Assembly (NCBI RefSeq): GCF_011067745.1
Contig: NZ_JAAMPJ010000012.1
Span: 186,001 to 250,000, forward strand
Reading direction: 5' to 3'
From: Lentzea alba
Lineage (GTDB): Bacteria; Actinomycetota; Actinomycetes; Mycobacteriales; Pseudonocardiaceae
DNA: 64,000 bases
Shown: one piece after another, positions 8,553 to 32,269 of the stretch
Position numbering within the stretch: position 1 is the stretch's first letter
Layout: every line of letters starts with the position of its first letter
Position numbers and translations under genes: made by a program
Notes under the pieces: model-generated
The model's database searches: none
Seen by the model: only the letters and a program-made list of their open reading frames with translations
Told to the model about the DNA's origin: nothing

Positions 8553-8554
8553 TC

Positions 8555-9175
8555 ATGTCCAGGGACAGGTTCAAACTGGCCGAGATCGCCCAGAAGCACT
8601 GGGTGCGCGACGGCGAGCAGATCGTGTGGGCCGTCGAACGCAAAGGCCACGTCGGCTCAGCGGGCAAGGCACCGCACGCGCTCGCCGGCGAGGTGCCCCA
8701 GGCCGAGATCATCGAGCCCGAGTGGCCGTTGCCGACCACCGCCGTGAGCAGCGGCCGGTTCTGCACCGACGAGTGGGCCCACGACCCGGCCGTGTGGGGC
8801 TGGGCGCACGCGCAAAGTCCAGCCCAGGTCGCGGTGCGCTGGGCCGACCTGTTCACCGCGGGACGAGACGAGTGCTGGCTGCTGCTGAGCAACCAGCGGC
8901 TGGGGCTCGTGGTGGAGGGTGAGGTGCTGGAGCCTGACCGCGGGGGCCTGTTCGGCCGGGGGCGGGGGTCCCAGCGCGAGGTCGCTCCGTTGGTCACGTG
9001 GTGGGAGGCCCCGGTCGGCGTGGCCAGGCGGTTCCTGGCCGTGCCGCTGGGCAGGCAGGTGCGGCCGGAGTGGTTCGTGCGCGTCGAGTTCGCCGACGGC
9101 TCCGCCTTCGACTTCCGGGACCCGCAGGCTGAGCAGTCCGTCCGAACGGCTTACGCCAACCTGACGAGTTCGTAG
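8555..9175 (+). CDS. PH-like protein, paralogue of the preceding gene (function unknown)
   Basis: This 206-aa soluble protein follows its neighbour after only 2 nt. It is rich in aromatic strands (WLLLSNQRLGLVV, WWEAPVGVARRF) and closes with WFVRVEFADGSAFDFRD plus a helix. That end mirrors the VSFVDGSGLDV ending of the gene before, which is the terminal strand-helix pattern of bacterial PH domains. The middle contains a Trp-rich stretch and a basic, glycine-rich loop (GGLFGRGRGS). It is the last gene of the YbaB/ESX-like cluster. No catalytic motif is seen. Confidence 0.6.
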   Translation: MSRDRFKLAEIAQKHWVRDGEQIVWAVERKGHVGSAGKAPHALAGEVPQAEIIEPEWPLPTTAVSSGRFCTDEWAHDPAVWGWAHAQSPAQVAVRWADLFTAGRDECWLLLSNQRLGLVVEGEVLEPDRGGLFGRGRGSQREVAPLVTWWEAPVGVARRFLAVPLGRQVRPEWFVRVEFADGSAFDFRDPQAEQSVRTAYANLTSS

Positions 9176-17938: not shown

Positions 17939-18732
17939 GCTGGTTCCTTTCCGGGGTGCCCGCTTCGGCGGAGGCGGGCCACGAGGTGGAGACGGTCGCC
18001 GGACAGCGCTGTGCTCAGCGGGGCGTCGGCGGTCCAGGGCTGGTCGGTGCGCGGGCCGGGGGAGTCGAACAGGGCGAGGACGTCGAACCCGGCGAGGTCG
18101 AGCAGGTGGCGCAGCTCCTGGGGGAACAGCAGCCGCCAGGCCGACCGCTGCACCAGCGGTTCGGTGCCGGCCCACTCCCAGGTGCGGCGGCGGCGCAACA
18201 ACTGTTCGGCGTGGTCGATCCACAGCTCGGTGTGCGAGGTGTACTCGGTACCTCGCCACGTCACCGAGCGGGTGCGCACGCCGTCGAGGAGTTCGGTGTT
18301 GCCGAGGAAGAACGCGCCGTTGCGCATCTCGGCGACCAGGAGGCCGTCGGCGTTGAGGTGCGTGCGGCACCGGGCCAGGAAGGCGTCGAGGTCGGCGTTG
18401 GTGTGGCAGTACAGCATCGCGCTGTCCAGACACGTGATCACGTCGAAGCGGCGGCCGAGGTCGAACGACCGCATGTCGGCCAGCGCCACGTCGACCGCCG
18501 GGTGGTGTTCCCGCACGTGCGCGAGCATGGCCTCCGAGCTGTCCAGTCCGGCGACGCGATAACCGTTGCGGGACAACCACCCCGCGTCGCGCCCGGTCCC
18601 GCAGCCGATGTCGAGCAGGTCCCGCCCGCCGTCGAACCTCGTGACGATGTCGTGCACGAACCGGGCCGCACTGTGTTCGGGATCGGGGAACTGGTGCTCG
18701 TACAGCTCGGGGTTGTCGGTGAGCAGGTTCAT
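17929..18732 (-). CDS. Class I SAM-dependent methyltransferase
   Basis: This 267-aa protein has the Rossmann motif I DLLDIGCGTGRDAGWLS (residues 38-54), the acidic end of beta-2 VAGLDSSEAML, and motif II VALADMRSFDLG. The C-terminal half is the substrate lid typical of small-molecule methyltransferases. The ATG overlaps the MFS stop (ATGA). Since it lies between an exporter and an importer, modification of the exported chelator is the likely role, but N-, O- or C-methylation cannot be told apart. Confidence 0.85.
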   Translation of the reverse strand: MNLLTDNPELYEHQFPDPEHSAARFVHDIVTRFDGGRDLLDIGCGTGRDAGWLSRNGYRVAGLDSSEAMLAHVREHHPAVDVALADMRSFDLGRRFDVITCLDSAMLYCHTNADLDAFLARCRTHLNADGLLVAEMRNGAFFLGNTELLDGVRTRSVTWRGTEYTSHTELWIDHAEQLLRRRRTWEWAGTEPLVQRSAWRLLFPQELRHLLDLAGFDVLALFDSPGPRTDQPWTADAPLSTALSGDRLHLVARLRRSGHPGKEPACP

Positions 18733-19901
18733 CGAACGACCTCCGGCTGTGGTGGCGTGAGCGCGCCGCGGCGGTGCAGCCAGAAGACGCCCGCGGCGCA
18801 GGCGAGGCCGACCACGACGCACAGCAGTGACGCGAACCGGTCACCGAACCCGATCACCCACCCGATCGCGGCGTTGCCGAGGGCGGCGGCCAGCCCGGAT
18901 CCCAGGTAGAACACGCCGAAGTGGGTGCCGGCCAGACTGTCCGGGCCGAACGAGGGGATCAGGTCGTAGACCAGGGGATGCGCGATCATCACGCCGGCCG
19001 CGAGCGCGAGCGTGGCGACGAGCACCGGCACGAGTCCGGACCACAGCGCCGGCGCGACGAATCCCGCACCCATGACGGCGAGCCCCGCCGCGATCACCGG
19101 TCCGCGTTCCCGGTTCTTCAGCAAGCGCGTGATGCGGACCTGGAACAGCAGCGTGGCGACCGTGGAGACGATGAACAGCGCGGCGACCACGCTCGCGTTC
19201 CCGGTGGCTTCCTGTGCCTGGATCGGCAGCAGCAGGTAAAGCTGGTTCTGCAGCACGAAAATCCCGCTGAGCACACACGTGAACGCCACGAACCGCCGGT
19301 TCGCCAGACACTCGCGCCAGTCGCCGAGGATCGTCCCGCCCCGGCGCGCGGCCGGTCGCTTCGGCAGCACCACGGCCTGGGCGACGGTCAGCACCGCGAA
19401 GATCCCGGCGGCGACCACCGCGGAGACCCGGAAGTCCCACAGCAGCAACACGCTGCCGAGCACCGGCCCGCACAGCGCACCCGCCTGGGCGTAGACGTTG
19501 AACCGGGCGAACGCCTCGGCGCGCGCTTCTCCCGCCTCCAACGCGATGTACGCCCGCACCGCCGGGTTGAACAGCGCCCCCGCCAGCCCGCTGAGCACCG
19601 ACGCGGCCAGCACCACGGCGAACGACTCACCGATCGCGAACAGCCCGAACCCCACCGCGCGCAGCGCGCAGCCGGCGAGGATGGCGGTCCGCGGTCCGAG
19701 CCGGTCCGACACGGTGCCGCCCACCAGGAACAGGCCCTGCTGACTCAGCGTCCGCACCCCGAGCACCACGCCGATCACCGCGGCGGACATCCCGAGGCCG
19801 CCCAAATGCGCGGCGAGGTAAGGAATAAGCAGATAAAACCCGGTGTTGACAGCGAACTGGTTCACCAGCAACAACCGCACCGGCAACGCGAACCGCTTCA
19901 T
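18729..19901 (-). CDS. MFS transporter, probable metallophore exporter
   Basis: This 390-aa protein has the 12-helix MFS pattern. The loop 2-3 signature region reads GGTVSDRLGPRTAILAG, and a mirrored copy lies in the second half. Exporters of this size accompany opine and carboxylate metallophores (for example CntE, SbnD). It is the first gene of the 19.9 to 12.7 kb run. I see no Zur-like box in the 265 bp before it, so it may depend on read-through from the biosynthetic operon past the hairpin at 20.05 kb, or on its own promoter. It could instead export an unrelated drug. Confidence 0.82.
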   Translation of the reverse strand: MKRFALPVRLLLVNQFAVNTGFYLLIPYLAAHLGGLGMSAAVIGVVLGVRTLSQQGLFLVGGTVSDRLGPRTAILAGCALRAVGFGLFAIGESFAVVLAASVLSGLAGALFNPAVRAYIALEAGEARAEAFARFNVYAQAGALCGPVLGSVLLLWDFRVSAVVAAGIFAVLTVAQAVVLPKRPAARRGGTILGDWRECLANRRFVAFTCVLSGIFVLQNQLYLLLPIQAQEATGNASVVAALFIVSTVATLLFQVRITRLLKNRERGPVIAAGLAVMGAGFVAPALWSGLVPVLVATLALAAGVMIAHPLVYDLIPSFGPDSLAGTHFGVFYLGSGLAAALGNAAIGWVIGFGDRFASLLCVVVGLACAAGVFWLHRRGALTPPQPEVVR

Positions 19902-20045
19902 CGCCGCCCCACATCCAGACCTGGCGTCTCACACGGTCGCCGGTAGTTGTGCGGCACAAGGACTTGCATGGAAGACGACGTCATTCGAGTGAAGCGGCAC
20001 CACGGCGAGCGCGCTCCGTAATCCCCGCCTGCCTGCCAATGTGCA

Positions 20046-20090
20046 CGCGGGGACCTTTCGTTCGCTCCAGTAGTACGAAAGGGCCCCGCG
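20046..20090. terminator. Large hairpin between biosynthetic and transport operons
   Basis: CGCGGGGACCTTTCGT pairs with ACGAAAGGGCCCCGCG with one mismatch over 16 bp, around a 13-nt loop. It lies 77 nt after the enolase-type gene stop and 145 nt before the MFS start. It could be a terminator, an attenuator between the two halves of the locus, or a member of a dispersed palindrome family. I see nothing else in the 19902-20166 gap. Confidence 0.6.
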
Positions 20091-20166
20091 TGCCGAAAAG
20101 TGGGGCTGGTGGGGGCCTTGTGGGTGAATGGGTGGCGGTGCGGTGGCAACTGCGGGGACGGGTGGG

Positions 20167-21195
20167 TCATCGGCGGGTCACCCCCAGGCCCGGGGTGCTG
20201 GAGAGGTGCAGGGTGCCGGTTTCGCCGCCGATGCCTGACCAGGGGTCGTGGGACAGCAGCAGGTGGCCGTCCAGGTCGGCCCACCTGGCGTGGCCGGCGA
20301 GGTGGACGGCGGGCGCGATGCCGAGTGAGCTGGCGACCAGGCAGCCGAGCATCACGTCCAAGCGGGCGTCACGGGCGGCTGAGACGATGTCCAGCGCGGG
20401 TCGCAGGCCGCCGCACTTGGCGAGCTTGATGTTGACGGCGTCCACCGCGCCCGCCAGCTTCCGCACGTCGGCGACCGTGGCGGCGTCCTCGTCGGCGATC
20501 AGCGGTGCCGGGCAACGTTCGCGGATCCACGCCAGCGCGTCCGGGTCACCGGGCGGGATCGGTTGCTCCACCGCGTCGAGCACGACACCGGCGGAGGTGA
20601 GTCGTTCCACCACCTTCACCGTCTCGTCCGGGCTCCAGCCACCGTTGGGGTCGAGCACCAGCCGGGCGTCCGGCGCGGCGGCGCGGACCGCGGTCACGGT
20701 GGCCACGTCCCGTTCCGGATCGGCGCCCGCCTTGACCTTGAGCACGGAGAACCCGCGTCCGGTCAGCGCGGCGGCCTGCGCAGCGGCGTCGTCCGGCGTG
20801 GTGATGCCGATGGTGTACGCGGTCGGGGTGTCGTGCCAGACCGGAACCCCGGCGAGAACGTGCACCGGCACGTCACGGCGCAGCCCGAGCAGGTCGTGCA
20901 ACGCCGCGTCGACCGCCGCCCGCACACCGGCCGGCAGCGCCGAGTCCGCGTGCAGGAGGTCGAGAGCGACCGACGGGGACTCCGCGCCGGCGAGCACCGG
21001 CCGCAGACCGTCCAAAAAGGACGTGATCGCAGCGACGTCGAGCTGGTAGTAGGTGCTGGTCACCACTTCGCCGTGGCCCTGCTGACCGTCGTGCTCCACG
21101 ACGACCCGCACGGCGTCGCGGCGTGACATCACGGAACGGGAGATGCGCAGAGGCGTGCCCAGTTCGAGGCCGTAGACCTCCCAACGAAGCTTCAT
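20167..21195 (-). CDS. Enolase-superfamily dipeptide epimerase-like enzyme
   Basis: This 342-aa protein is of the Ala-D/L-Glu epimerase (AEE)/muconate-cycloisomerase type. The catalytic KxK is LKVKAG (K153, K155). Metal ligands are D182 (LDPNGGW), E210 (EQPIP) and D235 (IADEDA), and the second base lies in NIKLAKCGG (257-260). The ending GCLVASSLGIAPAVHLAG and DLDGHLLL is AEE-like. These enzymes invert a stereocentre in a dipeptide or N-acyl amino acid, or perform related proton transfers. An ATP-grasp ligase in the same operon could supply such a dipeptide. It overlaps the PLP gene (ATGA). Confidence 0.85.
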   Translation of the reverse strand: MKLRWEVYGLELGTPLRISRSVMSRRDAVRVVVEHDGQQGHGEVVTSTYYQLDVAAITSFLDGLRPVLAGAESPSVALDLLHADSALPAGVRAAVDAALHDLLGLRRDVPVHVLAGVPVWHDTPTAYTIGITTPDDAAAQAAALTGRGFSVLKVKAGADPERDVATVTAVRAAAPDARLVLDPNGGWSPDETVKVVERLTSAGVVLDAVEQPIPPGDPDALAWIRERCPAPLIADEDAATVADVRKLAGAVDAVNIKLAKCGGLRPALDIVSAARDARLDVMLGCLVASSLGIAPAVHLAGHARWADLDGHLLLSHDPWSGIGGETGTLHLSSTPGLGVTRR

Positions 21196-22250
21196 GTGAG
21201 CACCACCGCCTTGGGCGCGACGACCGAACGGCAGCGCGTCCAGCCCGTCGCCTCGACCCGGTGGGCGTCACCGATCTCCACCGGCCGGTCGGAGGCGGCC
21301 CCGATCAGGCCGCGGGTGTGGCAGAAGTCGTCGTCGAAGATCGTGCCGAGGTAGCGGTGCGGACCGTCCGGGAAGATCGTCGCCACCACCGCACCGGGCT
21401 CGACCCTGGCCGCCCACGCGGCGACCAGCGCGACGGCGCCGCTGCTCCAGCCGCCGGTGACGAAGGCGTCCCTGGCGAGCCGGCGGCAGGCGTCCACCAC
21501 CTCGACCGGACCCAGCCAGTGCACCTCGTCGAACTCGGCGTAGGCCACGTTGCGCGGGTGGATGCTGCTGCCGAGTCCGCGCATCACCCTGGCCCGCGCG
21601 GGTTGTCCGAAGATCGTGGAGCCGACGGTGTCCACGCCGATCAGCCGCACGCCCGGCCAGTACCGGCGCAGCTCCCGCACGACTCCGGCGCTGTGCCCGC
21701 CGGTGCCCACGCTGCACACCAGGACGTCGACCGGGTCCAGCTGCTCGACGAGCTCCCTGGCCAGTCCCGCGTAGCCGCGCGGGTTGTCCGGGTTGTTGTA
21801 CTGGTCGGGCCAGTAGGCGTCCGGGAACTCGCGCAGCACCGCCTGGAGCCGGTCCAGCCGCGCCTGCTGCCAGCCGCCCACGGGATGCGGCCGATCCACC
21901 ACCTCGAGCCGGGCCCCGTGCGCGCGCAGCAGGGCGCGCATCGACGGCTCCAGTTCGTTGTCCACCACCAGGACCACCGGGTGTCCGAACACCTGGCAGG
22001 CGAACGCGAGACCGAGCCCCAGCGTGCCGCTGGTGGACTCCACGACCACGGCGCCGGGACGCAGCTCGCCGCGTTCGCGAGCGGCGCGGAGCATCGACAC
22101 GGCCGGCCGGGCTTTCATGCCGCCGGCGCTCAGGCACTCCAGCTTGGCCCAGAACCCGCCGTGCCGGTGGGGCAGCGGCGTGGTGATGCGGGTGACCGGG
22201 CTCTGGCCGAGCAGATCGAGCAGGTGCCGGTTCTGGCGCGGGATCATCAC
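21192..22250 (-). CDS. SbnA-like PLP enzyme (cysteine-synthase family)
   Basis: This 352-aa fold-type II PLP enzyme has its Schiff-base lysine in GGMKARPA (K46), the substrate-carboxylate loop ESTSGTLG (71-78), DQYNNPDNPRGY (149-160) and the PLP-phosphate loop GTGGHS (182-187). The spacing resembles SbnA, which joins O-phosphoserine and glutamate to make the precursor of 2,3-diaminopropionate in staphyloferrin B, more than housekeeping cysteine synthase. No SbnB-type dehydrogenase is present in the window, so the SbnA-type adduct may itself be the building block (inference). The start is GTG 22250 (GTGA overlap) or ATG 22247. Confidence 0.8.
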   Translation of the reverse strand: MMIPRQNRHLLDLLGQSPVTRITTPLPHRHGGFWAKLECLSAGGMKARPAVSMLRAARERGELRPGAVVVESTSGTLGLGLAFACQVFGHPVVLVVDNELEPSMRALLRAHGARLEVVDRPHPVGGWQQARLDRLQAVLREFPDAYWPDQYNNPDNPRGYAGLARELVEQLDPVDVLVCSVGTGGHSAGVVRELRRYWPGVRLIGVDTVGSTIFGQPARARVMRGLGSSIHPRNVAYAEFDEVHWLGPVEVVDACRRLARDAFVTGGWSSGAVALVAAWAARVEPGAVVATIFPDGPHRYLGTIFDDDFCHTRGLIGAASDRPVEIGDAHRVEATGWTRCRSVVAPKAVVLT

Positions 22251-23035
22251 GACGGACGCTCCGTGTAGTGGTGGATCGTCGTGGGACCGCCGTCGAGCCA
22301 GAAGAACGGATACGGCTCAGCGGACACGGCCCGCACACCGCTGCCGATGAACCAGGGCAGGATCGCGGCGGCCGTCTGGGCGAACAGGACCATCGGCGTG
22401 CCCGCCGCGACAGCGCGCCGCAGCAACGGCTCGAACGTGCCGTTGCCGACCGTCATGCCCGAGGCCAGCACGAGGTCGCAGCCGTCCAGCTCCGCGTCGG
22501 TGGCGATCGGCTCGTCCCACTCGGTCCGGCCGCCCTTGAGGTCGCACGCCACGTAGGTCGCGCCGCGCTCGCGCAGGTGGTGCAGCAGCGAGTTGACCAC
22601 ACCGACCACCAGCACCCGGTCGCCCGGCGCGGGGTCCAGCAGGTCCACCACAGCCTCCGCGCGGGACATGGACTTGGTCAGGGAACTGCCGGGACCGACG
22701 GTGATGGACTTGGTGGCGGACAGGTGATGCGGCCGGGCGTGCGCGAGATAGGCGTCGAGCGCGGCGGTGCGGATGGCCGGGTTCGGGTGGTCGAGGAGTT
22801 CGAGCACCGTTGAACCGACACAGCCGTGCACCTCGTTGTCGGCGACGTCCTCCACCGCGCAGGAGCCGACCGCGTCCTCCACGCGGAGGCTGACGACGGT
22901 GTTGCGGTAGGACTGTCCGCGCGTGGCGTGCCGGGCGCCCTGTCTGGTGGTGAACCCGACGCTCACGGAGCACAGCGCCGGATCGGGACCCAGCCCGCCA
23001 CCACGCACGAGTTCGACGAGGTCGGTGAGCGTCAC
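22247..23035 (-). CDS. DUF364/DUF4213 putative heavy-metal chelation protein
   Basis: This 262-aa protein has a DUF4213-like first part (residues 1-105, SVGFTTRQGARHATRGQSY). A Rossmann-like DUF364 domain follows, with GDRVLVVGVVNSLLHHLRERG, an ATDAELDGCDLVLASGMTVGNGT loop and an LFAQTAAAILPWFIGSG segment. The Pfam name of these domains is 'putative heavy-metal chelation'; their chemistry is not established. Its place between an SbnA-like enzyme and an ATP-grasp ligase in a probably zinc-regulated operon fits a metal-related role. The GTG start overlaps the ATP-grasp stop. Confidence 0.85.
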   Translation of the reverse strand: MTLTDLVELVRGGGLGPDPALCSVSVGFTTRQGARHATRGQSYRNTVVSLRVEDAVGSCAVEDVADNEVHGCVGSTVLELLDHPNPAIRTAALDAYLAHARPHHLSATKSITVGPGSSLTKSMSRAEAVVDLLDPAPGDRVLVVGVVNSLLHHLRERGATYVACDLKGGRTEWDEPIATDAELDGCDLVLASGMTVGNGTFEPLLRRAVAAGTPMVLFAQTAAAILPWFIGSGVRAVSAEPYPFFWLDGGPTTIHHYTERPS

Positions 23036-24273
23036 GCGGGCTCCTCGGCGTAGTCGACGGACAGACCGCCCACGAGCTGCTCAGCCCGCGCCCGCGCGCC
23101 GAGACCGTCCGGGTCGGTCACGACGACGTGGCCGAGGTAGCTGTTGTTGCTGGTCGGGTCGCCCGCGCGGTGGCCGGGCGGCTTGAGCACCCACTCCACG
23201 ACGTCCGGGGCCGGTTCGGCGCCGTTGATGGCGGCCACCAGCCCGGAGCGCGGCGGCAGGAGGAACGAGATCGCGGCGCTGCGCACCCCGGTGTCCGCCG
23301 GGCGCGGCTCAGGTCGTTCGCCCACAGCCAGTTGCGCGTACACGGCGGGAAGGTCGATGCCGGTCACCCGCCGGACCAGCTCCGTGATCTGGTTGCCGGC
23401 GGGACGCGGGTTGACCTCGACGAGTTTCGGGCCTTCCGGCGTCAGCTTGACCTCGGTGTGCGCGACGCAGCGGTCCAGGCCCAGCGCCTCGATCGCGGCG
23501 ACGGCGACCGCCGCGGCCTCGGCGGTGGGCAGGTCGGCGGGGAACATGTGCCCGCTCTCCACGAACCACGGATCACCCGCGACGCTCTTGTCGGTGACGC
23601 CGACGACGTGCGTGGTGCCGTCCGCGGTGACGGTCTCCACGCTCACCTCGGGCCCGGTCAGGAGCTCCTCCACCAGCACGGTCCGCACCCTGGGCTGGTT
23701 GCGGGCGTTGACGGGGAACGCCTCCATCGCGGCGAACGCCTCGCGCAGCCCCGCCTCGTCGGTCACCTTGCGCACGTACATGCCGGCGCACAGGTCGACC
23801 GGCTTGACCACCAGCGGGTACCCCAGCTCCGCAGCGGCCTTGGCGAGTGCCGGCCAGTCCTCGGCGAGGGCGAACCGGGGACCGGGCACCCCCGCCTCGC
23901 GCAGGGTGGTGCGGGTGAGGTCCTTGCGGCAGGCCCGTTCGACCGCAAGGGGATCGGAACCGGGCAGGCCCAGGTGCGCGGCGACCCGCGCGGCGGTGGG
24001 GAGGTAGTAGTCGCACGAGGAGATCACGCCGTCGAAGCGCAGCACCGCGTGCAGGCGTTCGACGTGGTCGAGCAGGGCGGGCACGTCGTTGGTCTCCGCG
24101 GTCAGCACGTTGTCCGCGGCCAGCAACGGATGCGGGTGCGCGGGGGCGGCGCGCAGGTAGTGGTGCAGATCGCGGGTCATGAAGGTGAAGCGGTGCCCTG
24201 ACTCGTTGATCGCCCTGGGCAGCAGCGAGCTCATCGCGCCGACCCAGCTCTCGATCATCAACAGGTGAGCCAC
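23032..24273 (-). CDS. ATP-grasp amino-acid ligase
   Basis: This 413-aa protein of the BacD/carbamoyl-phosphate-synthase-like ATP-grasp type first has a Rossmann-type N-domain (HLLMIESWVGAMSSLLP). The ATP-grasp core follows: GYPLVVKPVDLCAGMYV, the VLVEELLTGPEVSVETV strand pair and the metal-binding EVNPRPAGNQI. Such enzymes activate a carboxylate as acyl phosphate and join it to an amine, often forming dipeptides. The GTG at 24273 follows GAGGAGGACAT, a very strong SD. It is the first gene of the four-gene biosynthetic run, 46 nt after a Zur-like box. Confidence 0.87.
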   Translation of the reverse strand: MAHLLMIESWVGAMSSLLPRAINESGHRFTFMTRDLHHYLRAAPAHPHPLLAADNVLTAETNDVPALLDHVERLHAVLRFDGVISSCDYYLPTAARVAAHLGLPGSDPLAVERACRKDLTRTTLREAGVPGPRFALAEDWPALAKAAAELGYPLVVKPVDLCAGMYVRKVTDEAGLREAFAAMEAFPVNARNQPRVRTVLVEELLTGPEVSVETVTADGTTHVVGVTDKSVAGDPWFVESGHMFPADLPTAEAAAVAVAAIEALGLDRCVAHTEVKLTPEGPKLVEVNPRPAGNQITELVRRVTGIDLPAVYAQLAVGERPEPRPADTGVRSAAISFLLPPRSGLVAAINGAEPAPDVVEWVLKPPGHRAGDPTSNNSYLGHVVVTDPDGLGARARAEQLVGGLSVDYAEEPA

Positions 24274-24386: not shown

Positions 24387-24965
24387 TCAGGCCAGCGGGG
24401 CGGTCGCCCTGGCCAGCGTGGTCCGCAGAACGGTCAGCAGCGCATCCCGGACCGACAGCTTCACGCGGGCGTCGAAGCTGATCAGCGGGATGTGGTCGCC
24501 GATCGCCAGTGCCCAGCGGATGTCCGCCACGGCGTGGCTGAGCCGGCCGTCGAAGAGGTTGACCGCCACGACGAACGGCAGGCCCGCCTTCTCGAAGTAG
24601 TCGACGGCCGGATAGCACTCGTCGATGCGCCGCGTGTCGACGATGACGAGCGCGCCCAGCGCGCCCAGCACCAGGTCGCGCCACATGAACCCGAAGCGGT
24701 CCTGGCCCGGCGTGCCGAACAGGTACAGCTTGATGTCGTCGTCGATCGTGATGCAGCCGAAGTCGAGCGCCACCGTGGTGGTGGTCTTGTCCGGGGTGTG
24801 CGCGGTGCGGTCGGCGTCCTCGGACGCCGTGGTGATGGCCGCCTCGGTGCGCAGCGGCGTGATCTCCGAGATGGACGACACCGCTGTCGTCTTGCCGACC
24901 CCGAAGCCACCGGCGATGATGATCTTGACCGGCGTCGGGGTGCGGGGCTCAGCTGATGGCTTCAA
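24387..24965 (-). CDS. Conservon small GTPase (CvnD-type)
   Basis: This 192-aa Ras-like GTPase has P-loop GGFGVGKTT (residues 19-27), switch-II region FGTPGQDRF and base-recognition motif VNLFDG. It belongs to the last protein type of the actinobacterial conservon (CvnA-D). The start is a TTG at 24965 inside the end of the DUF742 gene; no better start is visible downstream before the P-loop. It probably acts as the output of the kinase/roadblock/DUF742 complex at the membrane. Confidence 0.88.
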   Translation of the reverse strand: MKPSAEPRTPTPVKIIIAGGFGVGKTTAVSSISEITPLRTEAAITTASEDADRTAHTPDKTTTTVALDFGCITIDDDIKLYLFGTPGQDRFGFMWRDLVLGALGALVIVDTRRIDECYPAVDYFEKAGLPFVVAVNLFDGRLSHAVADIRWALAIGDHIPLISFDARVKLSVRDALLTVLRTTLARATAPLA

Positions 24966-25299
24966 GGCGGCGGATGATCCTCTCGATCATGGCGGGGTCG
25001 CCGGCGAGGTCGGCGTTGGGTCGGTGGGCGGCGACGTACCCGAGCGCGGCCAGGTCCGCCACGAGGACTCGGGCCACACCGACGTGCAGCCCGAGAATCG
25101 CGGCGATCTCCGCCACCGACGTGGGTTTCGTGCAGAGCGCCACGATGTCGCGGCGCTCGAACGACAGGACCGCGTGGGACGCCGCGCCGAGATCACTGGT
25201 CACCACCTGGGTCTCGAGCTCCAGGTTGCGGTCGATCGGCTCGGTCCGCCCGGAGGTGAGCAGGTACGGCCGCAGCAGTGAGACGTCTCGGTCCCGCAT
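24949..25299 (-). CDS. DUF742 protein (CvnC-type)
   Basis: This 116-aa DUF742 protein begins near SLLRPYLLTSGRTEP and carries a winged-helix-like segment (TSVAEIAAILGLHVGVARVLVADL). CvnC proteins join the conservon complex. Three bases separate it from the roadblock gene and its end overlaps the GTPase gene by 17 nt. Confidence 0.88.
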   Translation of the reverse strand: MRDRDVSLLRPYLLTSGRTEPIDRNLELETQVVTSDLGAASHAVLSFERRDIVALCTKPTSVAEIAAILGLHVGVARVLVADLAALGYVAAHRPNADLAGDPAMIERIIRRLEAIS

Positions 25300-25302
25300 G
25301 CC

Positions 25303-25740
25303 CTACCGCCCGACCGTGAACTTGAGTTCCTCGATCACCTGCGGGGTGAGGACGGCGCTGGCGCGGTTGGCGAACATCGCCATCTCGTAGGCGATCGTGC
25401 CGAGACTGGCCTGTTTGGACGCCAGCACGCCCAGGGCGCAGCCGATGCTGATGGTGCAGACGACCAGGTAGCCGTGGCCGAGCTCGACGATGACCTTGTC
25501 CGGCGCGCCGAGCGGGTGGCAGTCGGAGACGCCGCCCGCAAGGCTCAGCATGGCCGAGGTGATCGCCGCCAGCCGGTCGGCGTTCTCCCGCACCAGGTCT
25601 GCCGACATCGCGACGAGCAGGCCGTCGGAGGACACGGCGATCGCGGCCAGGGCGCCGGGGGTGCCCTGGGTGAAACGGGACACGAGCCAGTTGAAGTTCT
25701 GGGCCTCGACGCTGGTCCGTGCGGCGGGAAGCGCGCTCAT
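25303..25740 (-). CDS. Roadblock/LC7-domain protein (CvnB-type)
   Basis: This 145-aa Roadblock/LC7 fold is recognisable from the NFNWLVSRFTQGTPGALAAIAVSSDGLLVA start. GHGYLVVCTISIGCALGVLA and a C-terminal helix follow. Roadblock proteins regulate small GTPases, and here the partner is encoded two genes downstream. The start overlaps the kinase stop (ATGA). Confidence 0.9.
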   Translation of the reverse strand: MSALPAARTSVEAQNFNWLVSRFTQGTPGALAAIAVSSDGLLVAMSADLVRENADRLAAITSAMLSLAGGVSDCHPLGAPDKVIVELGHGYLVVCTISIGCALGVLASKQASLGTIAYEMAMFANRASAVLTPQVIEELKFTVGR

Positions 25741-28061
25741 TCACTGCTCTCTTTCGTCTGTTGCGTGCCTGCTCCGGCGGCGGCGCCCAGAGCCAGGCCG
25801 TTCGCGAACGCGTCCAGGGCGGCTCGTTCGGCGGCGGGGTCGCGCTGCTGCCAGGCGGCGACGTGCTCGGCAGCGGGGTGGGCCGGCACCGGGGTGATGT
25901 CGGTGCGCAGGCCGGGGGAGAGGCTGGCGCCCGGCACCCGCCGGGTCAGGCCGGCGCGTCCGTCGCCCTCCGGGGTGGCCGCGGGCACCGGAAAGGGCTG
26001 CGGCAGCACCGCCACGCGGGCGATGGCGGTCGACACCAGCGTGATCTCCGTGGACAGGTCGCCGGACAGGTGGTCGGGCTCGGAGATCGCGGCGGGCAAC
26101 GTGAGCGTGATGTCGTCGTCGCCCATGAACCAGCCGAAGTCCTGCTCGTGCGTCCGTAGTTGATGAGGGGAGCTTTCATAAACCTCAGGTTTGTGAAAGC
26201 TCCCCTCATCAACTGTGAGCAGACCTGGCGGCACGGTGACGCGCGCGGTGACACCGCCGCCGTCGGTCGGGAGGAGCTCGACGGCGAGCGAGTGCCTGCG
26301 CGCCAGCCGGCCCACCACGAACAGGCCGAGGACGCTGGTCGGCGTGATGTCCAGCCGCTCGCGTTCCACCAGGCGCAGGTTCTCCTCGGTGAGCTTGGCC
26401 TCGGTCATCCCGATGCCGTGGTCGACGATCCGCACGACGCAGGGCCTGCCGGCCGGGCACGTGATGTCGACCTCCACAGTGGACTCCGGCGGAGAGAACG
26501 AGGTCGCGTTGTCCAGCAGTTCGGCGAACAGCTGGATCAGGTCCGCGCCGAGTGCGGGCGCCACCGTGACCTTGGCGACGGTGCCGAGCCGGACCCGTTG
26601 GTAGTCCTCGATCTCCGCCAGCGCCGAACGCAGGACGGTGCCCAGCTCCATCGGGCCGGAGAGCCTGGTGTCCTCGCGGGTGCCCGCGATCACGAGCAGG
26701 TTGTCGGCGGTGCGCCGCAACCGGGTGGACAGGTGGTCGAGCTGGTACAGGCCGGCGAGCAGCTTCTCGTTCTGCTCGTCGCGTTCCAGCTCGTCGACGA
26801 GGGCGAGCTGCCTGCCTACAAGGCTGCGCGTGCGCCTGGCGACGTTGGCGAACATCAGGCTCACGTTGCGGCGCGTGATCGCCTGCCGTTCCACGAGCTG
26901 CGCCGCGGTGCCCTGCACGCGGTTGAACGCCTCGGCGAGCCGGCCCAGCTCGTTGCCGGACGACACGTCGATCGCGCTGAGCCGCGCCACCTGCTCGTCG
27001 GGCACCTCGGTGTCGGTGACGCGCACCAGTTCCCGGCCGGCCAGGTCGGCCACCGCGCCCGCCGCGTCGGTGAGGCTGCGCAACGGGTTCGCGATCGAGC
27101 GGCGGACGGCGATCACCAGCCACACGACCAGGGCGAACAGCGCGGCGCCGCCGAGGCCGACGGTCCACACCACCACGGCGGCCTGGTTCGCTCGCGCCGC
27201 GGCGGCTGCGGTGATCTCGTCGGTGACCCGGTCCTGCGCGACCCTGCGCATCTCCGCCTGCGCGGACACGGCGGCCAGCGCTTCCGTTGCGAACGACGGG
27301 CTCGGCTCGGTCGGCAGCCGCGTGGCGAGCTCGTCGACCTGGCGGGCCTCGGTGCCCTCCTCGACCGTCACGACCAGTGCGGCGTGGTCCGCGTCGGCCT
27401 GTTGCACGAACCGCTCGGTGAACGCGCGGGCCTGCATCACGGCGTCGTTCTGCACGGCCTGTCCGGTCTGTCGCCGGGCCGCGGCGATGATCAGGCCGGT
27501 GTCGCGCATCGAGTGCTGCTCGGAGGCGCGCAGCAGTGCTTCGAGCGCGGTGAGCTGTCTCGTGCCCTCGGCGTCGCCGGTCTGTTGCGGCACGAGGCGC
27601 AGCGAGTCGATGACCGCGGTGATGGCGGCGTGGTAGGTCCGCGCGACGCCGTCGAACGACGCGCTGCCGCGCACGGCGTTCTGCCGCATCCCGGTCAGCG
27701 AACCCAGGCGCACCAACGCGGTCGTGAGCTCGTCGGACATCTCGGTGCCGAGCGCCGTGCGCACGTCCTCGGCCGCGGCGTCCACGTTGCCGTGCTGGCG
27801 CTTCAGGTTCTCGCCGTCACCGCCGGGCGACGCGAGGTGCGCGGCGGTGAGCACGCGTTCCCTCTGCAGTTCCCAGATCAGGTTGCCCAGCTCGCGCACC
27901 TGCCGGGCGGACTCGGCGGTGGCGGCGGCCGATCCGGCGTCCCCGGTCTGACCGAGCAGGAACGGCACCGCCACGAGCACCGCGGCGACCAGCGGAGGCA
28001 CGATCAGCAGGTTGAGCTTGCGGCCGATGGAGTGCCCGTGCAGCAGCACACTTCGTCTCAC
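25737..28061 (-). CDS. Conservon sensor kinase with nitrate/nitrite-sensing (NIT) domain (CvnA-type)
   Basis: This is a 774-aa membrane kinase. TM1 lies at about 18-36 (LLIVPPLVAAVLVAVPFLL). An extracytoplasmic helical NIT-type domain follows (ELGNLIWELQRERVLTAA near residue 55), then TM2 (WTVGLGGAALFALVVWLVI), HAMP and a DHp-like helix without a clear HELRTP box. The HATPase domain has LDNATSFSPPES and DHGIGMTEAKL. The GTG at 28061 overlaps the ABC ATPase stop (GTGA), so transporter and conservon are joined. A 57-bp palindrome just after the HATPase domain adds about 19 residues (VDEGSFHKPEV and on). The remaining tail is Pro/Ala-rich. Confidence 0.88.
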   Translation of the reverse strand: MRRSVLLHGHSIGRKLNLLIVPPLVAAVLVAVPFLLGQTGDAGSAAATAESARQVRELGNLIWELQRERVLTAAHLASPGGDGENLKRQHGNVDAAAEDVRTALGTEMSDELTTALVRLGSLTGMRQNAVRGSASFDGVARTYHAAITAVIDSLRLVPQQTGDAEGTRQLTALEALLRASEQHSMRDTGLIIAAARRQTGQAVQNDAVMQARAFTERFVQQADADHAALVVTVEEGTEARQVDELATRLPTEPSPSFATEALAAVSAQAEMRRVAQDRVTDEITAAAAARANQAAVVVWTVGLGGAALFALVVWLVIAVRRSIANPLRSLTDAAGAVADLAGRELVRVTDTEVPDEQVARLSAIDVSSGNELGRLAEAFNRVQGTAAQLVERQAITRRNVSLMFANVARRTRSLVGRQLALVDELERDEQNEKLLAGLYQLDHLSTRLRRTADNLLVIAGTREDTRLSGPMELGTVLRSALAEIEDYQRVRLGTVAKVTVAPALGADLIQLFAELLDNATSFSPPESTVEVDITCPAGRPCVVRIVDHGIGMTEAKLTEENLRLVERERLDITPTSVLGLFVVGRLARRHSLAVELLPTDGGGVTARVTVPPGLLTVDEGSFHKPEVYESSPHQLRTHEQDFGWFMGDDDITLTLPAAISEPDHLSGDLSTEITLVSTAIARVAVLPQPFPVPAATPEGDGRAGLTRRVPGASLSPGLRTDITPVPAHPAAEHVAAWQQRDPAAERAALDAFANGLALGAAAGAGTQQTKESSE
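26158..26214. repeat. 57-bp near-perfect palindrome inside the kinase coding sequence
   Basis: Two 28-bp arms flank a single central base (26186). The left arm starts AGTTGATGAGGGGAGCTTTC and the right arm is its complement with one mismatch. It is read through in frame as part of the kinase tail. It resembles the shorter palindromes at 58749 (GATGAAGGG type) and 20046 (GGGGACCTTTC type), which suggests a dispersed hairpin element. Confidence 0.8.
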
Positions 28062-28831
28062 CTGGTCACCCCGCAACGGTGCTGGGCGCGGACCATGTCC
28101 TCGATGGACGCGCGCAGCCCGAGGAACGCGGGCGTGCGCTTGGTGGCGAGATCCCTGTCCTCCGCGAGCGGGATCCGGGCCTCGGCGGCGACGCGACCGG
28201 GGTCGCTCGCGAGCACGACGACCCTGGTGCCCAGGAACACGGCCTCTTCGACGTCGTGGGTGACCATGAGCACGGTCGTGCCCGTGTCGCGCCAGATCTG
28301 CCTGATCAACAGCTGCATGTCCTCCTTGGTCTGCACGTCCAGCGCGCCGAACGGTTCGTCGAGCAACAGCACGTCGGGTTCGCAGACCAGCGCCCTCGCG
28401 ATCGCGACGCGCTGCTGCTGGCCGCCGGACAGCTGGCGCGGCAACGACCGCCGCACGTCCGCGAGGCCGGTCTCGGCGAGGTACCAGTCGACCCTGCGGC
28501 GGCGTTCGGCGGCGTCCAGCGCGAGCAGCTCGAGTCCAAAAGCGACGTTGCGTTCCACGGTGCGCCACGGGTAGAGCGACCCGGTCTGGAAGACCAGTCC
28601 GCGGTCCGGTCCGGGCCCGGTGATCGGGTGTCCCTCGATGGTGATCTCGCCGCTGGTCGGCGTCGTGAGCCCGGCGACCAGCGACAGCAGGGTCGACTTC
28701 CCGGAGCCGCTCGCGCCGACGACGCAGAGGAACTCGCGCGGGGACACGGTGAGGTTCACGCCGTCGAGCGCGAGCTTCGGGCCACCGCGCTGGGGGTAGG
28801 ACATGGAGACGTCGACGAGCTCCAGCGTCAT
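28058..28831 (-). CDS. NitT/TauT-type ABC transporter ATPase
   Basis: This 257-aa nucleotide-binding protein of the SsuB/TauB/NrtD class has Walker A GASGSGKST, Q-loop VFQTGSLYPWRTV, signature LSGGQQQR, Walker B VLLLDEPFGALD and the switch histidine in VTHDVEEA. It powers the permease encoded just upstream (ATGA overlap). Its stop overlaps the kinase start, so it ties the transporter to the conservon. The substrate is probably a small nitrogen compound, judging from the guanidine-hydrolase-like gene in the same run (inference). Confidence 0.9.
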   Translation of the reverse strand: MTLELVDVSMSYPQRGGPKLALDGVNLTVSPREFLCVVGASGSGKSTLLSLVAGLTTPTSGEITIEGHPITGPGPDRGLVFQTGSLYPWRTVERNVAFGLELLALDAAERRRRVDWYLAETGLADVRRSLPRQLSGGQQQRVAIARALVCEPDVLLLDEPFGALDVQTKEDMQLLIRQIWRDTGTTVLMVTHDVEEAVFLGTRVVVLASDPGRVAAEARIPLAEDRDLATKRTPAFLGLRASIEDMVRAQHRCGVTR

Positions 28832-29685
28832 GCGGCCCACCGCCCCACCCGAGCGCGCACCAGGCGCAGGGCCACGTCGATCGTCACGCCGATGACGCCG
28901 ATGACGACGAGCACCGCGAAGATCTTGTCCGTCTGCAGGAACCGTTGCGCGCGAACGATCCGGTAGCCGAGTCCGGCCGTGGAGTTGACGAGTTCCGCCA
29001 CCACCACGAAGTTCCACGCCGCCGCCGCGTTGACGCGAACCGCGTCGATGATGCCCGGCAACGAGTGCGGCACCACGACCTTGCGCAACACCTCACCGCG
29101 GCGTGCGCCGAGCGTGTAGGAGACGTCGATGAGCGGGCGCGGCACTCCCCGGACGACGTCGGCGGTCATCAGCGTGTTGAAGAAGACCGTGCCGATGAAC
29201 AGGATCGCGATCTTGGAGGGCTCGCCGAGCCCGAGCCAGATGATGAGCAACGGGATGAACGCGCTCGCGGGCAGGTAGCGCAGCAGCCCGATGACCGGTT
29301 CGAACACCGCCTGCGCGGCGTGGAACGTGCCGATCAGGATGCCGAGCGGCACGGACACCAGCACGGCGAGCCCGAAACCTTCCAGCACCCGCCGCGTGGT
29401 CGTCCACACGTCGACCGCGAGCTCGCCCGAGCGGGCCATCTCCCAGCCGGCGGAGAGCACGGCGCCCGGCGACGGCAGGAACGTGGCGGGCACGACACCG
29501 CTCGCGCTCAGCACCACCCAGAACGTGAACGGCACGGCCAGGGATGCAACGGTGAGCGTAGTCGTGACGCGGCGGGAGATCGGTGTGCGGATGGTGAGCA
29601 GCGTGCGGGGCGGGCGGGTCCGGCGGGGCAGCGGTGGCCACGCGGCGCGGACGTCCGCCGCGCGCTCGGCGAGTGCGGTCTTCAT
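28828..29685 (-). CDS. NitT/TauT-type ABC transporter permease
   Basis: This 285-aa inner-membrane protein has a basic N-terminus, about six helices and the SsuC/TauC-type EAA loop YTLGARRGEVLRKVVVPHSLPGI. The AELVNSTAGLGYRI segment is also typical for this class. It overlaps both neighbours by 4 nt and forms the channel for the binding protein encoded upstream. Confidence 0.9.
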   Translation of the reverse strand: MKTALAERAADVRAAWPPLPRRTRPPRTLLTIRTPISRRVTTTLTVASLAVPFTFWVVLSASGVVPATFLPSPGAVLSAGWEMARSGELAVDVWTTTRRVLEGFGLAVLVSVPLGILIGTFHAAQAVFEPVIGLLRYLPASAFIPLLIIWLGLGEPSKIAILFIGTVFFNTLMTADVVRGVPRPLIDVSYTLGARRGEVLRKVVVPHSLPGIIDAVRVNAAAAWNFVVVAELVNSTAGLGYRIVRAQRFLQTDKIFAVLVVIGVIGVTIDVALRLVRARVGRWAA

Positions 29686-30668
29686 CTCCGCACCGCCTTG
29701 ACGAACCTGTCGTCGAACAGTCCGTCCAGCGAGGGCCGCTTCTGCGTGAGGCCGGTGCTCACCATGAAGTCCGCGATCCGGCCGGCCTGGTGGTTGAGGT
29801 GCGTGGGCGTGACGCCCGGCGTGAACGCGTCGATGTTCTGCCGCAACGTGAAGATGGTGGTACCCGCGTCGTAGGTGCGGTAGTCGTCGGTGCTCACACC
29901 ACCGCGCTTGGCCATGATCTCGATGGCCTGGCCGTTGTTCTGCTTGATCCAGTCGAGCGTGTCGAACCACGTGTTCACCAACGCCTGCGCCGCCTCCGGG
30001 CGGTTCTTCGCGAACTCGCCGGACACGACGAGGTGGTCGGGGATGGCGCCGGGGAACTCGGCGGAGGTCGCGATCGCGCGACTGCCGGGGCGCTGCAGGG
30101 CGGTGGTGGTGAACGGTGCGAAGGCGCCGACCGCGTCGACCTTGCCCGCGACGAAGGCCGCGGCCGCCGCGTCGGTGGCGAGCGGCACCAGCTCGATGTC
30201 CTTTTGCGACAGACCGGCCTCGGTCAGGGCGAGCAGCAGCAGGTAGTGGTCGACGGTGCCCTGCTCGACGGCGACCTTCTTGCCCTTCAGGTCGGCGACA
30301 CCCGAGATGCCCTCACGGGCGATCACCTGGTCGTTGCCGGTGGAGTTGTCGTTGACGAGGATGATCGTCTGCTGCGCGCCACCGCTGACCGAGGCGAGCG
30401 TGTCGTTGAGCGTCTGGCTGTTGGCGTCGATCGCACCGCTCGACAAGGCGTTGAGGCTGTCGGTGTAGCTGTCGAAGTACTTCAGCTCGACGTCGACGTT
30501 GTTGCTCCGGAAGAAGCCTTGTTCGTGCGCGACCTGCCAGGGGAACCAGCCGGGCCACGCGCTCAGACCCAGTGTGATCTTGTCGGTGGACGTGGGGGTC
30601 GATGTGCAGGCCGTGGCACACAGCAACACCAGTACGGCCGAGAAACGGCTGATGCGGCGGGAAAACAA
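29682..30668 (-). CDS. NMT1/Ssu-type substrate-binding lipoprotein
   Basis: This 328-aa binding protein starts with a TTG at 30668, 6 nt after AGGAG. Its signal is RRISRFSAVLVLLCATAC with lipid-anchored Cys21. The mature part begins KITLGLSAWPGWFPWQVAHE. The AWPGWFPW word is shared, as I recall, with binding proteins next to urea- and guanidine-degrading enzymes, rather than with taurine or sulfonate binders. GTVDHYLLLLALTEAGL and the second-lobe VPLATDAAAAAFVAGKVDA are NMT1-like. Guanidine or a related cation is my preferred ligand. Confidence 0.85.
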   Translation of the reverse strand: MFSRRISRFSAVLVLLCATACTSTPTSTDKITLGLSAWPGWFPWQVAHEQGFFRSNNVDVELKYFDSYTDSLNALSSGAIDANSQTLNDTLASVSGGAQQTIILVNDNSTGNDQVIAREGISGVADLKGKKVAVEQGTVDHYLLLLALTEAGLSQKDIELVPLATDAAAAAFVAGKVDAVGAFAPFTTTALQRPGSRAIATSAEFPGAIPDHLVVSGEFAKNRPEAAQALVNTWFDTLDWIKQNNGQAIEIMAKRGGVSTDDYRTYDAGTTIFTLRQNIDAFTPGVTPTHLNHQAGRIADFMVSTGLTQKRPSLDGLFDDRFVKAVRR

Positions 30669-30703
30669 ACCGAACTCCTGTGAGATTCCGTTGTGGGGGA
30701 GGG

Positions 30704-31834
30704 CTAGTCGCCTGCGGAACGGGGCAGATGGCCCGCGCGGACGAGACAGCCGAGGGTGTCGCAGATGACCCTGGTGGCGATCAACGAGGTGATCTCCGCG
30801 TGGTCGTACGGGGGAGAGCACTCGACGACCTCGATGCCGGCGAGCGGCTGCGCGGCCACCAGCTGGATGAACTTGAGCACCTCGCGAGGCAGGAACCCGC
30901 CGGGTTCGGGCCAGCCGGTGCCGGGGACGAACGCCGCGTCGAGGCAGTCGACGTCGAAGCTGAGCCAGACGGCCTCGGCACCGTCCCACGCCACGTCCAG
31001 CGCCCGTTGCGCGGCGGCCTCGATGCCCATCTCCACGCAGTCGGTCACCGTCATGATCGTGGTACCGCGCTCGCGGCCGATCTTCACCCCTGGGCGGGGC
31101 GCCTGCCAGCCGCCGATGCCGATCTGGACGAGGTTGCGGGCCGGCACGTTCGGGATGTCCGTCGCGTGGAACCACGGCGTGGTGTGCATCCGCTCGTCCA
31201 GGTCGGTTTCCTGGGTGTCCACGTGCCGGTCGAAGTGGATGATCCCCAGATTTCCGCTCAGATGTTCGGAAACACCGCGCACGGTGGGATAGCCGATCGA
31301 GTGGTCGCCCCCGAGCACGACGGGAAAGGCGCCCGAGGAGTACACGTGACCGACGGCCTTGCTGATCTGGTCGAAGGTCTTCTCGATGTTGCCGGGAATG
31401 GTGAACACGTCACCGAGGTCCGCGATGGTGATGGACTCGCGCAGGTCCACGCCCAGCTCGAAGTTGTACGGGCCGTACAGCGCGGAGATCTTGCGGATGC
31501 CCTGCGGCCCGAACCGGGTGCCAGGGCGGTAGGTGGTACCGCCGTCGAACGGGGCGCCCAGCACGACGACGTCGTACTCGCCGCACGTGCGGACGTCCTC
31601 CACGAACGGCGCCTTGAGAAAGGTGTTGATGCCCGCGAAGTGCGGCAGCTCGCCGCGGGAGAAGGTCGGAATGCGCCTGTCCACAACGGAGTCCGCAGCG
31701 GGGAGCCCCAGTTCGAGGCCGCGCGCGACCTCGCGTTCCCATCCTGTTGTCGGTAACTCGCTCTCGCGTTCGACGGCGGCGCGTGCCTCCGGGCCGTAAT
31801 TGTCGTGCAACGGTCTGCCGCTGCTCTCAGTCAT
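30704..31834 (-). CDS. Arginase-family enzyme, GdmH-like guanidine hydrolase
   Basis: This 376-aa ureohydrolase has metal-binding motifs GGDHS (175-179), HFDRHVD (200-206, where ordinary agmatinases read DAHxD) and SFDVDCLD (292-299). An N-terminal extension of about 80 residues reads RRIPTFSRGELPHFAGINTF. To my memory this extension and the DRHVD variant are features of the Ni-dependent guanidine hydrolases first described in cyanobacteria, which release urea and ammonia. Database annotation would call it agmatinase. I start at the ATG at 31834; a GTG 12 nt upstream, at 31846, has AGGA close by. It leads a run with an ABC importer and conservon. Confidence 0.78.
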   Translation of the reverse strand: MTESSGRPLHDNYGPEARAAVERESELPTTGWEREVARGLELGLPAADSVVDRRIPTFSRGELPHFAGINTFLKAPFVEDVRTCGEYDVVVLGAPFDGGTTYRPGTRFGPQGIRKISALYGPYNFELGVDLRESITIADLGDVFTIPGNIEKTFDQISKAVGHVYSSGAFPVVLGGDHSIGYPTVRGVSEHLSGNLGIIHFDRHVDTQETDLDERMHTTPWFHATDIPNVPARNLVQIGIGGWQAPRPGVKIGRERGTTIMTVTDCVEMGIEAAAQRALDVAWDGAEAVWLSFDVDCLDAAFVPGTGWPEPGGFLPREVLKFIQLVAAQPLAGIEVVECSPPYDHAEITSLIATRVICDTLGCLVRAGHLPRSAGD

Positions 31835-32195
31835 CGGTGTCTGCACGCTTCCTGTGCGCATTCTGATGTACCGAAATGCGGAGGTCCCCGGAAACTCCGT
31901 GTTCTTTGACATGCACCTGGACGGAATGGCTCGTGATTCCAGTCGCAATTGAGATTCCAAGCTTAGCCGTGTGCGCAACCCCTTCTGCCGGTTCGGGCGT
32001 TATCGAATGGAGCAATGACTTCCGATACTTCGCCTTCACGTTGGGTGACGCGTCGCAGGTGGCCTGCGGTGTCGGTCGGCGAATGGTCCGCGCCAATGGC
32101 GTGCCAATTCGCATGATTACGATGTTTGGGGCCAATCGGGTGATTCCACGGCGCGCGGCAGAACGGGTCACGTATTTGAAGATCACTCGCGTTCA
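31835..32195. other. Lower-GC divergent intergenic region
   Basis: About 360 bp separate the guanidine-hydrolase-like gene from the catabolic operon. The region is visibly less GC-rich than its neighbours. Open frames on both strands lack family features and good starts. A TAAGCT box on the minus strand would give a leader of about 140 nt. I compared the leader by eye with guanidine-I and guanidine-II riboswitch features and found none. Confidence 0.4.
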
Positions 32196-32225
32196 TTGAC
32201 TGCCGGCGGTCTGCGGGGCTACTGT
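32196..32225 (+). promoter_or_regulatory. Sigma-A-type promoter of the oxidoreductase operon
   Basis: TTGACT (32196-32201) and TACTGT (32220-32225) are separated by 18 nt. The start of transcription would fall inside the palindromic operator that follows directly. Confidence 0.6.
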
Positions 32226-32252
32226 GCAACTAGTTGCATGTAACTAGTTACA
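32225..32252. promoter_or_regulatory. Tandem 14-bp palindromic operator
   Basis: Two perfect palindromes, TGCAACTAGTTGCA and TGTAACTAGTTACA, stand head to tail with no gap, sharing the core AACTAGTT. They overlap the expected transcription start and end 17 nt before the ATG at 32270. A repressor bound here would block the promoter. The LacI-type gene at the end of the operon is one candidate, though the site lacks the usual central CG of LacI operators; a GntR-type protein elsewhere is the other. Confidence 0.65.
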
Positions 32253-32269
32253 TCAGCCGGGAGGGTGCG

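Follow-up and report, generated by a model that had tools for sequence, protein, structure and literature searches.

In a window of 64,000 nucleotides of Lentzea alba (assembly GCF_011067745.1, contig NZ_JAAMPJ010000012.1, positions 186,001 to 250,000), eight tightly packed genes run in the same direction, as the initial annotation had stated and as our analysis confirmed; all lie on the minus strand. In order of reading these encode an arginase-family hydrolase of 376 aa (30704-31834), a solute-binding lipoprotein (29682-30668, in our reading with a TTG start after CAGGAG), an ABC importer permease (28828-29685), an ABC importer ATPase (28058-28831), CvnA (25737-28061), CvnB (25303-25740), CvnC (24949-25299), and CvnD (24387-24965). 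Five of the seven junctions overlap (binding protein/permease, permease/ATPase, and CvnA/CvnB by ATGA, ATPase/CvnA by GTGA, and CvnC/CvnD by 17 nt), whereas CvnB and CvnC are 3 nt apart and the hydrolase and binding protein genes 35 nt apart. Pfam searches identified Arginase, NMT1/NMT1_2, BPD_transp_1, ABC_tran, NIT plus HAMP plus HATPase_c, Robl_LC7 (roadblock), DUF742, and ATP_bind_1 domains, respectively, the last, in the Ras-like small GTPase CvnD, with P-loop GGFGVGKTT; the consecutive CvnA, CvnB, CvnC, and CvnD genes thus form a conservon, a G-protein system of Actinomycetota, with a sensor kinase-like CvnA that carries an outer NIT domain. The motifs DRHVD, RRIPTFSRGELPHF, and AWPGWFPW, on which the initial annotation relied, are present. 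ATP-grasp/DUF364/SbnA-like genes lie downstream, but among the other Lentzea-group loci retrieved they were found beside the unit only in locus L201 and were therefore not considered part of the system.

To investigate whether the hydrolase is a guanidinase (GdmH type), as the initial annotation had proposed, or an agmatinase or guanidinobutyrase, we used similarity scores and residues rather than a phylogenetic tree. The protein scored 716 bits, with 82% identity, to the guanidinase of Nitrospira inopinata (9fek) and 575 bits to GdmH of Synechocystis (7esr/7oi1), the next best score being 186 bits. All ten published metal and specificity positions are kept: the metal ligands H182, D207, H209, D211, D299, D301, and E344 correspond to H178, D202, H204, D206, D294, D296, and E338 of the query, and the Thr, His, and Trp at N. 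inopinata positions 105, 222, and 313, which serve as the criterion for guanidinases (PMC11410670), to T101, H217, and W308 (chain offset +2). The best NCBIfam hits were indeed agmatinase models, but these stayed below their cut-offs (214 of 302 and 166 of 174 bits), and the other arginase-family protein of the genome (L002) showed the reverse pattern and behaves as the guanidinobutyrase-type protein (277 bits to 3nio, 157 bits to 9fek). Together with the riboswitch linkage of relatives described below, these results led us to reject an agmatinase or other ureohydrolase identity, and with it a run that has nothing to do with guanidine, as very unlikely.

The binding protein gave NMT1 and SsuA_fam hits, has a predicted TauA/SsuA fold (mean pLDDT 88), and carries a nearly invariant Cys in a lipobox-like signal. 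NCBIfam calls it an aliphatic sulfonate type, but its orthologues sit in riboswitch-led guanidinase operons, and it is here considered a putative guanidine-binding protein. In other taxa, guanidinase plus this importer mostly follows a guanidine-I riboswitch (31 of 35 loci without a co-linear conservon). In contrast, in the 5' region of the Lentzea run (31835-32233, minus strand), which contains blocks conserved in Lentzea, no guanidine riboswitch was found: there was no Rfam match over the gathering threshold, no relevant match at E values up to 5, and none with a model of our own, nor was an RF00442 aptamer found in the rest of the genome. A comparison of the regions upstream of the units revealed no shared operator in all groups, at least in the part of it that was inspected.

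We next investigated whether the linkage of importer and conservon is unique to this strain. Binding protein, permease, ATPase, and CvnABCD were co-linear in 60 of 60 nearest CvnA loci of three other genera of the Pseudonocardiaceae, in eight Lentzea-group genomes (one split over contigs), and in two loci of the Pseudonocardia group (L184 and L185), a pairing of importer and conservon kept in dozens of related species, which rules out linkage by chance. Thus, neither outcome that would have counted against the initial annotation (grouping of the hydrolase with agmatinases or guanidinobutyrases, or a linkage confined to this strain) was observed. Outside the family the unit was not found in the sample examined: in 394 genomes of the class, the best CvnA hit other than that of the own genome had an E value of 1.1e-104, and 0 of the 5 such loci retrieved had binding protein and permease. 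A conservon next to a guanidinase in Actinomadura craniellae (L035) is on the opposite strand, its CvnA matches ours only over 311 residues, and it falls with unrelated paralogues of the L. alba genome in the CvnA tree; we treat it as unrelated.

Conservon-linked binding proteins form one clade (support 100/100) inside those of guanidinase loci, although all nonconservon binding proteins in the tree come from guanidinase loci, which is a sampling bias; this tree left out L034, L204, and L205 and used every fourth locus of L239 to L285. Locus L184 carries riboswitch, guanidinase, importer, and conservon in one run. Hence, strict replacement of the riboswitch by the conservon was rejected as a rule, also because loci L041, L049, L051, and L079 have neither a detected riboswitch nor a conservon. 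At locus L188 only binding protein plus conservon is kept, the binding protein open reading frame overlapping that of CvnA with no permease or ATPase between them. In 11 loci in which the importer was lost, no CvnC was found (0 of 11 with a hit) and CvnA had diverged; these CvnAs nest inside the unit clade on a long branch, in a tree made by a quick method with several long branches, which left out L034, L204, L206, L181, and L186 and used every fifth locus of L239 to L285. Guanidinase remnants precede 8 of 62 units that lack the enzyme. The predicted NIT domain of CvnA matches NasR (4akk; Z 27.2, 2.9 Å over 264 residues), a comparison at the level of the fold and not of the nitrate-binding arginines of NasR, and the NIT segment shared by most units is not well kept in L185 and in the unit at L268.

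An alternative explanation is that the conservon is merely made together with the importer, in a link of dosage or timing, while its NIT domain senses another signal, such as nitrate or cell status. The NasR fold fits this, and overlapping reading frames alone show co-expression only. However, the locus with binding protein plus conservon and no transporter, the loss of CvnC hits and divergence of CvnA where the importer is gone, and the retention of importer plus conservon after guanidinase decay argue against it, and we consider it unlikely; nitrate as the signal has no support here beyond the name and fold of the NIT domain. Still less likely is that, in lineages without guanidinase, the binding protein has shifted to another small cation or guanidino compound that the conservon then senses. 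In favor of such a shift, 53 non-Lentzea units (60 loci minus 7 with a remnant) show no guanidinase remnant, and genomes G399 and G651, which have a unit, lack both guanidinase and a carboxylase over the cut-offs used. On the other hand, 117 of 140 conserved binding-protein columns are kept in conservon-only units and only 2 of 140 switch cleanly to another conserved residue, and 15 of 18 tested unit genomes without guanidinase carry a full-length urea/guanidine-type carboxylase, scored without regard to the guanidine-specific Asp residues (HMM positions 701 and 956; PMC11410670). This carboxylase is not specific to the unit, since it also occurs in 4 of 9 genomes that have guanidinase and in 2 of 3 importer-less ones.

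Taken together, the run is best explained, with moderate confidence, as a guanidine uptake-and-use operon into which a NIT-type conservon was built once within the Pseudonocardiaceae. What the sequences show is a guanidinase, its SsuA-type binding protein and ABC importer, and CvnABCD, kept as one co-linear unit across genera. Nickel-dependent hydrolysis of guanidine, guanidine binding, and all of the signaling are inferred: the membrane-anchored binding protein would capture guanidine, feed the importer, and, when loaded, dock on the outer NIT domain of CvnA, which would then act through CvnB, CvnC, and the GTPase CvnD to set expression of guanidine and nitrogen genes. In this view, the system would work beside the guanidine-I riboswitch, as in the relative that keeps both (which also shows that the conservon need not replace it), or in its place, as in Lentzea and the units without guanidinase, which have no detected riboswitch at the locus. 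The suggestion of the initial annotation that this conservon senses a nitrogen compound (guanidine or nitrate) is therefore supported only in part, guanidine being the best inference, backed by the riboswitch-led copy of the whole run, the locus with binding protein plus conservon only, and the change of the conservon where the importer was lost, in the absence of binding or signaling data. Possible, though somewhat less likely than not, is the further reading that a Ras-like GTPase system does the job that the riboswitch does elsewhere, with guanidine presented to the NIT domain by a dedicated binding protein, and that it has been kept in dozens of species even after the guanidinase was lost. 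If true, this would be a protein route to guanidine sensing beside the known riboswitches. A conservon fixed next to an importer with a well-supported substrate gives one specific ligand to try for a class of switches whose signals are unknown, with natural variants (riboswitch plus conservon, binding protein plus conservon only, and importer lost) as ready-made tests. Among the papers searched, none contained both "conservon" and "guanidine."

Compared with known systems, the hydrolase shares its enzyme family, metal and specificity residues, and long N-terminal region with GdmH of Synechocystis and N. inopinata (7ESR/7OI1 and 9FEK), and an ABC importer as partner with Synechocystis (PMC12186494), but in this run no riboswitch and no nickel-loading genes were noticed and the operon continues into a conservon. 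As in guanidine-I riboswitch operons, guanidinase is accompanied by binding protein, permease, and ATPase, but the window and all Lentzea-group loci have no detected riboswitch and a G-protein system is appended. The conservons of Streptomyces coelicolor (cvn1 to cvn13) have the same CvnA-B-C-D order and domains, including NIT-bearing CvnA, but their described accessory genes are of the P450 (cvnE) and GAF (cvnF) types (PMC13343842), whereas here a binding protein plus ABC importer is the fixed partner. The proposed logic resembles that of binding-protein-assisted sensors such as TorT/TorS, LuxP/LuxQ, and ChvE/VirA, in which an extracytoplasmic binding protein presents a small ligand to a sensor, although the TorS-TorT entry 3o1i was only a weak match in the structural comparison; in the inferred complex of binding protein and CvnA, the output would instead be a Ras-like GTPase system.

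The window lies in a 10.2-Mb genome close to Lentzea, the nearest named hydrolase being that of L. aerocolonigenes (locus L003; 96% identical), from a genome of the window's own genus. The initial annotation had described eight co-oriented genes in which a guanidine-hydrolase-like gene and an importer are joined to a conservon with a NIT domain, and this observation held: all eight genes are present, co-oriented, and almost gapless, and their domains are as described. The ATPase stop and the CvnA start share GTGA at 28058-28061. In Lentzea-group loci (L003, L004, and L202-L205), a conserved short reading frame (close to MEFSGTSAFRYIKNAQRKRADTDD) lies upstream of guanidinase, with its end overlapping the guanidinase ATG, whereas in the window (about 31827-31905) and in L201 a one-base difference shifts its frame; a pattern for its core occurs once in this genome. 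Two copies of the palindrome AACTAGTT were found near the start of the divergent oxidase-like gene at 32234 (window about 32215-32262) and are conserved in several Lentzea-group loci (L004 and L201-L204). At 18729-24258, ATP-grasp, DUF364, SbnA-like, enolase-superfamily, and a further transporter-like gene follow the conservon after a gap; L213, a guanidinase-importer locus of another family, has distant relatives (31 to 36%) of four of these near its operon.

To assess the identity of the hydrolase, we compared it with solved structures by phmmer, which gave 716 bits to 9fek (the Nitrospira inopinata guanidinase, so named in PMC11410670) and 575 bits to 7esr/7oi1 (Synechocystis GdmH), followed by a drop to 186 bits for proclavaminate amidinohydrolase and 164 bits for guanidinobutyrase. 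The only other match found in this genome (L002) showed the reverse (277 bits to guanidinobutyrase and 157 bits to 9fek). Upon mapping of the positions named in PMC11410670 onto the alignment, with a +2 offset of the chain that we inferred from the residues, all ten were found to be kept. The genome also has a urease alpha-subunit match.

We next investigated the genes that accompany guanidinase in other taxa. Among the 80 best hydrolase loci of the GTDB collection, the order guanidinase-binding protein-permease-ATPase recurs in Micromonosporaceae, Streptosporangiaceae, and others, and two Chloroflexota loci have the importer in front of the guanidinase. A covariance model built from 17 guanidine-I riboswitches found the riboswitch in 31 of 35 loci that have guanidinase plus importer and no co-linear conservon (33 from these hydrolase loci, together with L212 and L213 from a further set). 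It was absent in L041, L049, L051 (in which the importer is divergent and 43 to 52% alike), and L079 (37 to 45%). The binding protein is predicted to have the TauA/SsuA fold. Of 140 binding-protein columns conserved in the 25 rows without a conservon, 117 are kept in the 16 conservon-only rows and two switch cleanly.

To investigate whether the linkage of importer and conservon is conserved, we searched 24 genomes of the window's genus and found guanidinase in 7, the CvnA orthologue in the same 7 plus one, and neither in 16. In one of these genomes (G584), guanidinase and CvnA lie on different contigs, each broken off inside the unit (L205 and L206). In the eighth (G593, locus L182), importer and conservon are kept beside the same upstream neighbours, and only remnants of the guanidinase are left. 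In the family, 84 of 390 genomes hold CvnA at an E value of up to 1e-85, the window's genus included. All 60 with E values of 2.5e-207 or better, other than that genus and G641, were fetched in two sets (13 and 47), and 60 of 60 have binding protein, permease, and ATPase directly in front and CvnB, CvnC, and CvnD behind; they belong to three genera (here g2, g4, and g95). G641 (locus L184) and G645 (L185, the same place as L034, Pseudonocardia sp. TRM90224) have guanidinase, importer, and conservon in one run. In contrast, the 13 weaker CvnA loci (L177-L181, L183, and L286-L292) have no importer in the fetched stretch (0 of 13); L186 (G639), a short contig, was not counted. This genome has 7 CvnA-type hits in all.

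Three variants of the unit were informative. L184 begins with a guanidine-I riboswitch (8502-8619, minus strand), followed by guanidinase, importer, and conservon. In L188 (genome G651), the binding-protein ORF (stop 2709-2711) overlaps the CvnA ORF (start 2708), followed by CvnB, CvnC, and CvnD, with no permease or ATPase between at this locus, which fits the binding protein, not transport as such, being the conservon's partner. Eleven importer-less CvnAs of genus g4 (L177-L180 and L286-L292) nest inside the unit's clade on a long branch; 0 of these 11 loci have a CvnC hit, and L177 and L178 have no CvnD hit either. L177 and L286 were seen to share upstream neighbours with importer-bearing loci. 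So conservon change goes with importer loss.

In the phylogeny of binding proteins, the conservon-linked proteins are one clade (100/100) inside those of guanidinase loci, next to the Micromonosporaceae (96/75, not starred), although the comparison rows all come from guanidinase loci and are thus a biased sample. Guanidinase remnants lie just upstream of the binding protein in 8 of 62 loci without intact guanidinase there, i.e., in six of the eight g95 loci, one of g2 (19 residues only), and G593. We then assessed whether unit genomes in which no guanidinase was found carry another pathway. Of 18 such genomes (including G651, with binding protein plus conservon only, but not G564, which has a riboswitch-led guanidinase elsewhere), 15 carry a full-length carboxylase over the TIGR02712 cut-off, G405 has a partial one in a riboswitch-led operon, and G399 and G651 have none over the cut-off. 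In the fetched loci of 12 of the 15 (not G459, G489, and G508), both carboxyguanidine-deiminase-type genes lie beside the carboxylase in 11 of 12 (not G407), as does allophanate hydrolase in 11 of 12 (no hit in G511); one set was named by NCBIfam. That these are guanidine rather than urea carboxylases rests on the deiminase-type neighbours alone, and the same carboxylase is found in 4 of 9 genomes with guanidinase and in 2 of 3 importer-less ones, so it is common in the group. Guanidine-carboxylase-type clusters (L301-L314, L318, and L320) mostly lie beside a TetR-type regulator gene and often an APC permease, with no riboswitch found in these loci. In L316 (5871-9900) and L317 (6039-9363), a guanidine-I riboswitch is followed by two deiminase-type genes and a carboxylase relative matched only over about 660 to 676 residues of its middle and end, without the biotin carboxylase part.

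We next investigated the distribution of the riboswitch in the family. In 23 of 37 guanidinase genomes, it lies directly upstream on the same strand (counted by hand from coordinates), and three more have it nearby on the opposite strand. The seven guanidinase genomes of the window's genus have no match anywhere at an E value of up to 0.001 under strict filters, nor has this genome in its own search. The standalone units have none either (0 of 14 in L164-L176 and L182 and 0 of 47 in L239-L285). This fits the conservon taking over regulation, but it is a correlation over few lineages, and L184 keeps both. In the 390 genomes of the family, there were also many matches to RF00442 below its cut-off (roughly 36 to 54 bits, mostly 110 to 155 nucleotides), which perhaps represent another ykkC-type riboswitch class.

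The binding protein has a lipobox-like signal with a nearly invariant Cys, and CvnA has an outer NIT domain with the predicted fold of NasR. Most importer-bearing CvnAs share a segment close to DSLRLVPQxTxDAEGTRQLTALEALLRANE, which is less well kept in L185, L268, and the importer-less CvnAs, and we propose that the loaded binding protein docks there. The interpretation in the initial annotation, that this conservon senses a nitrogen compound such as guanidine, was partly supported. The guanidinase, as identified from sequence, and the conserved importer-conservon unit are well supported, whereas hydrolysis of guanidine by this enzyme, binding of guanidine by the binding protein, docking of the binding protein on CvnA, and signalling are inferred; sensing of guanidine by the conservon is the most economical reading, but it rests on comparative evidence alone.

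In the literature searched, no paper combined conservons with guanidine, although some papers mention both conservons and ABC transporters. As to the known systems, for Cvn8 a repressor including CvnC has been hypothesised (PMC8510531), the accounts of conservons consulted in PMC13343842 give no known CvnA NIT ligand and describe P450 and GAF accessory genes, and the guanidine review PMC12186494 covers riboswitch control and ABC import.
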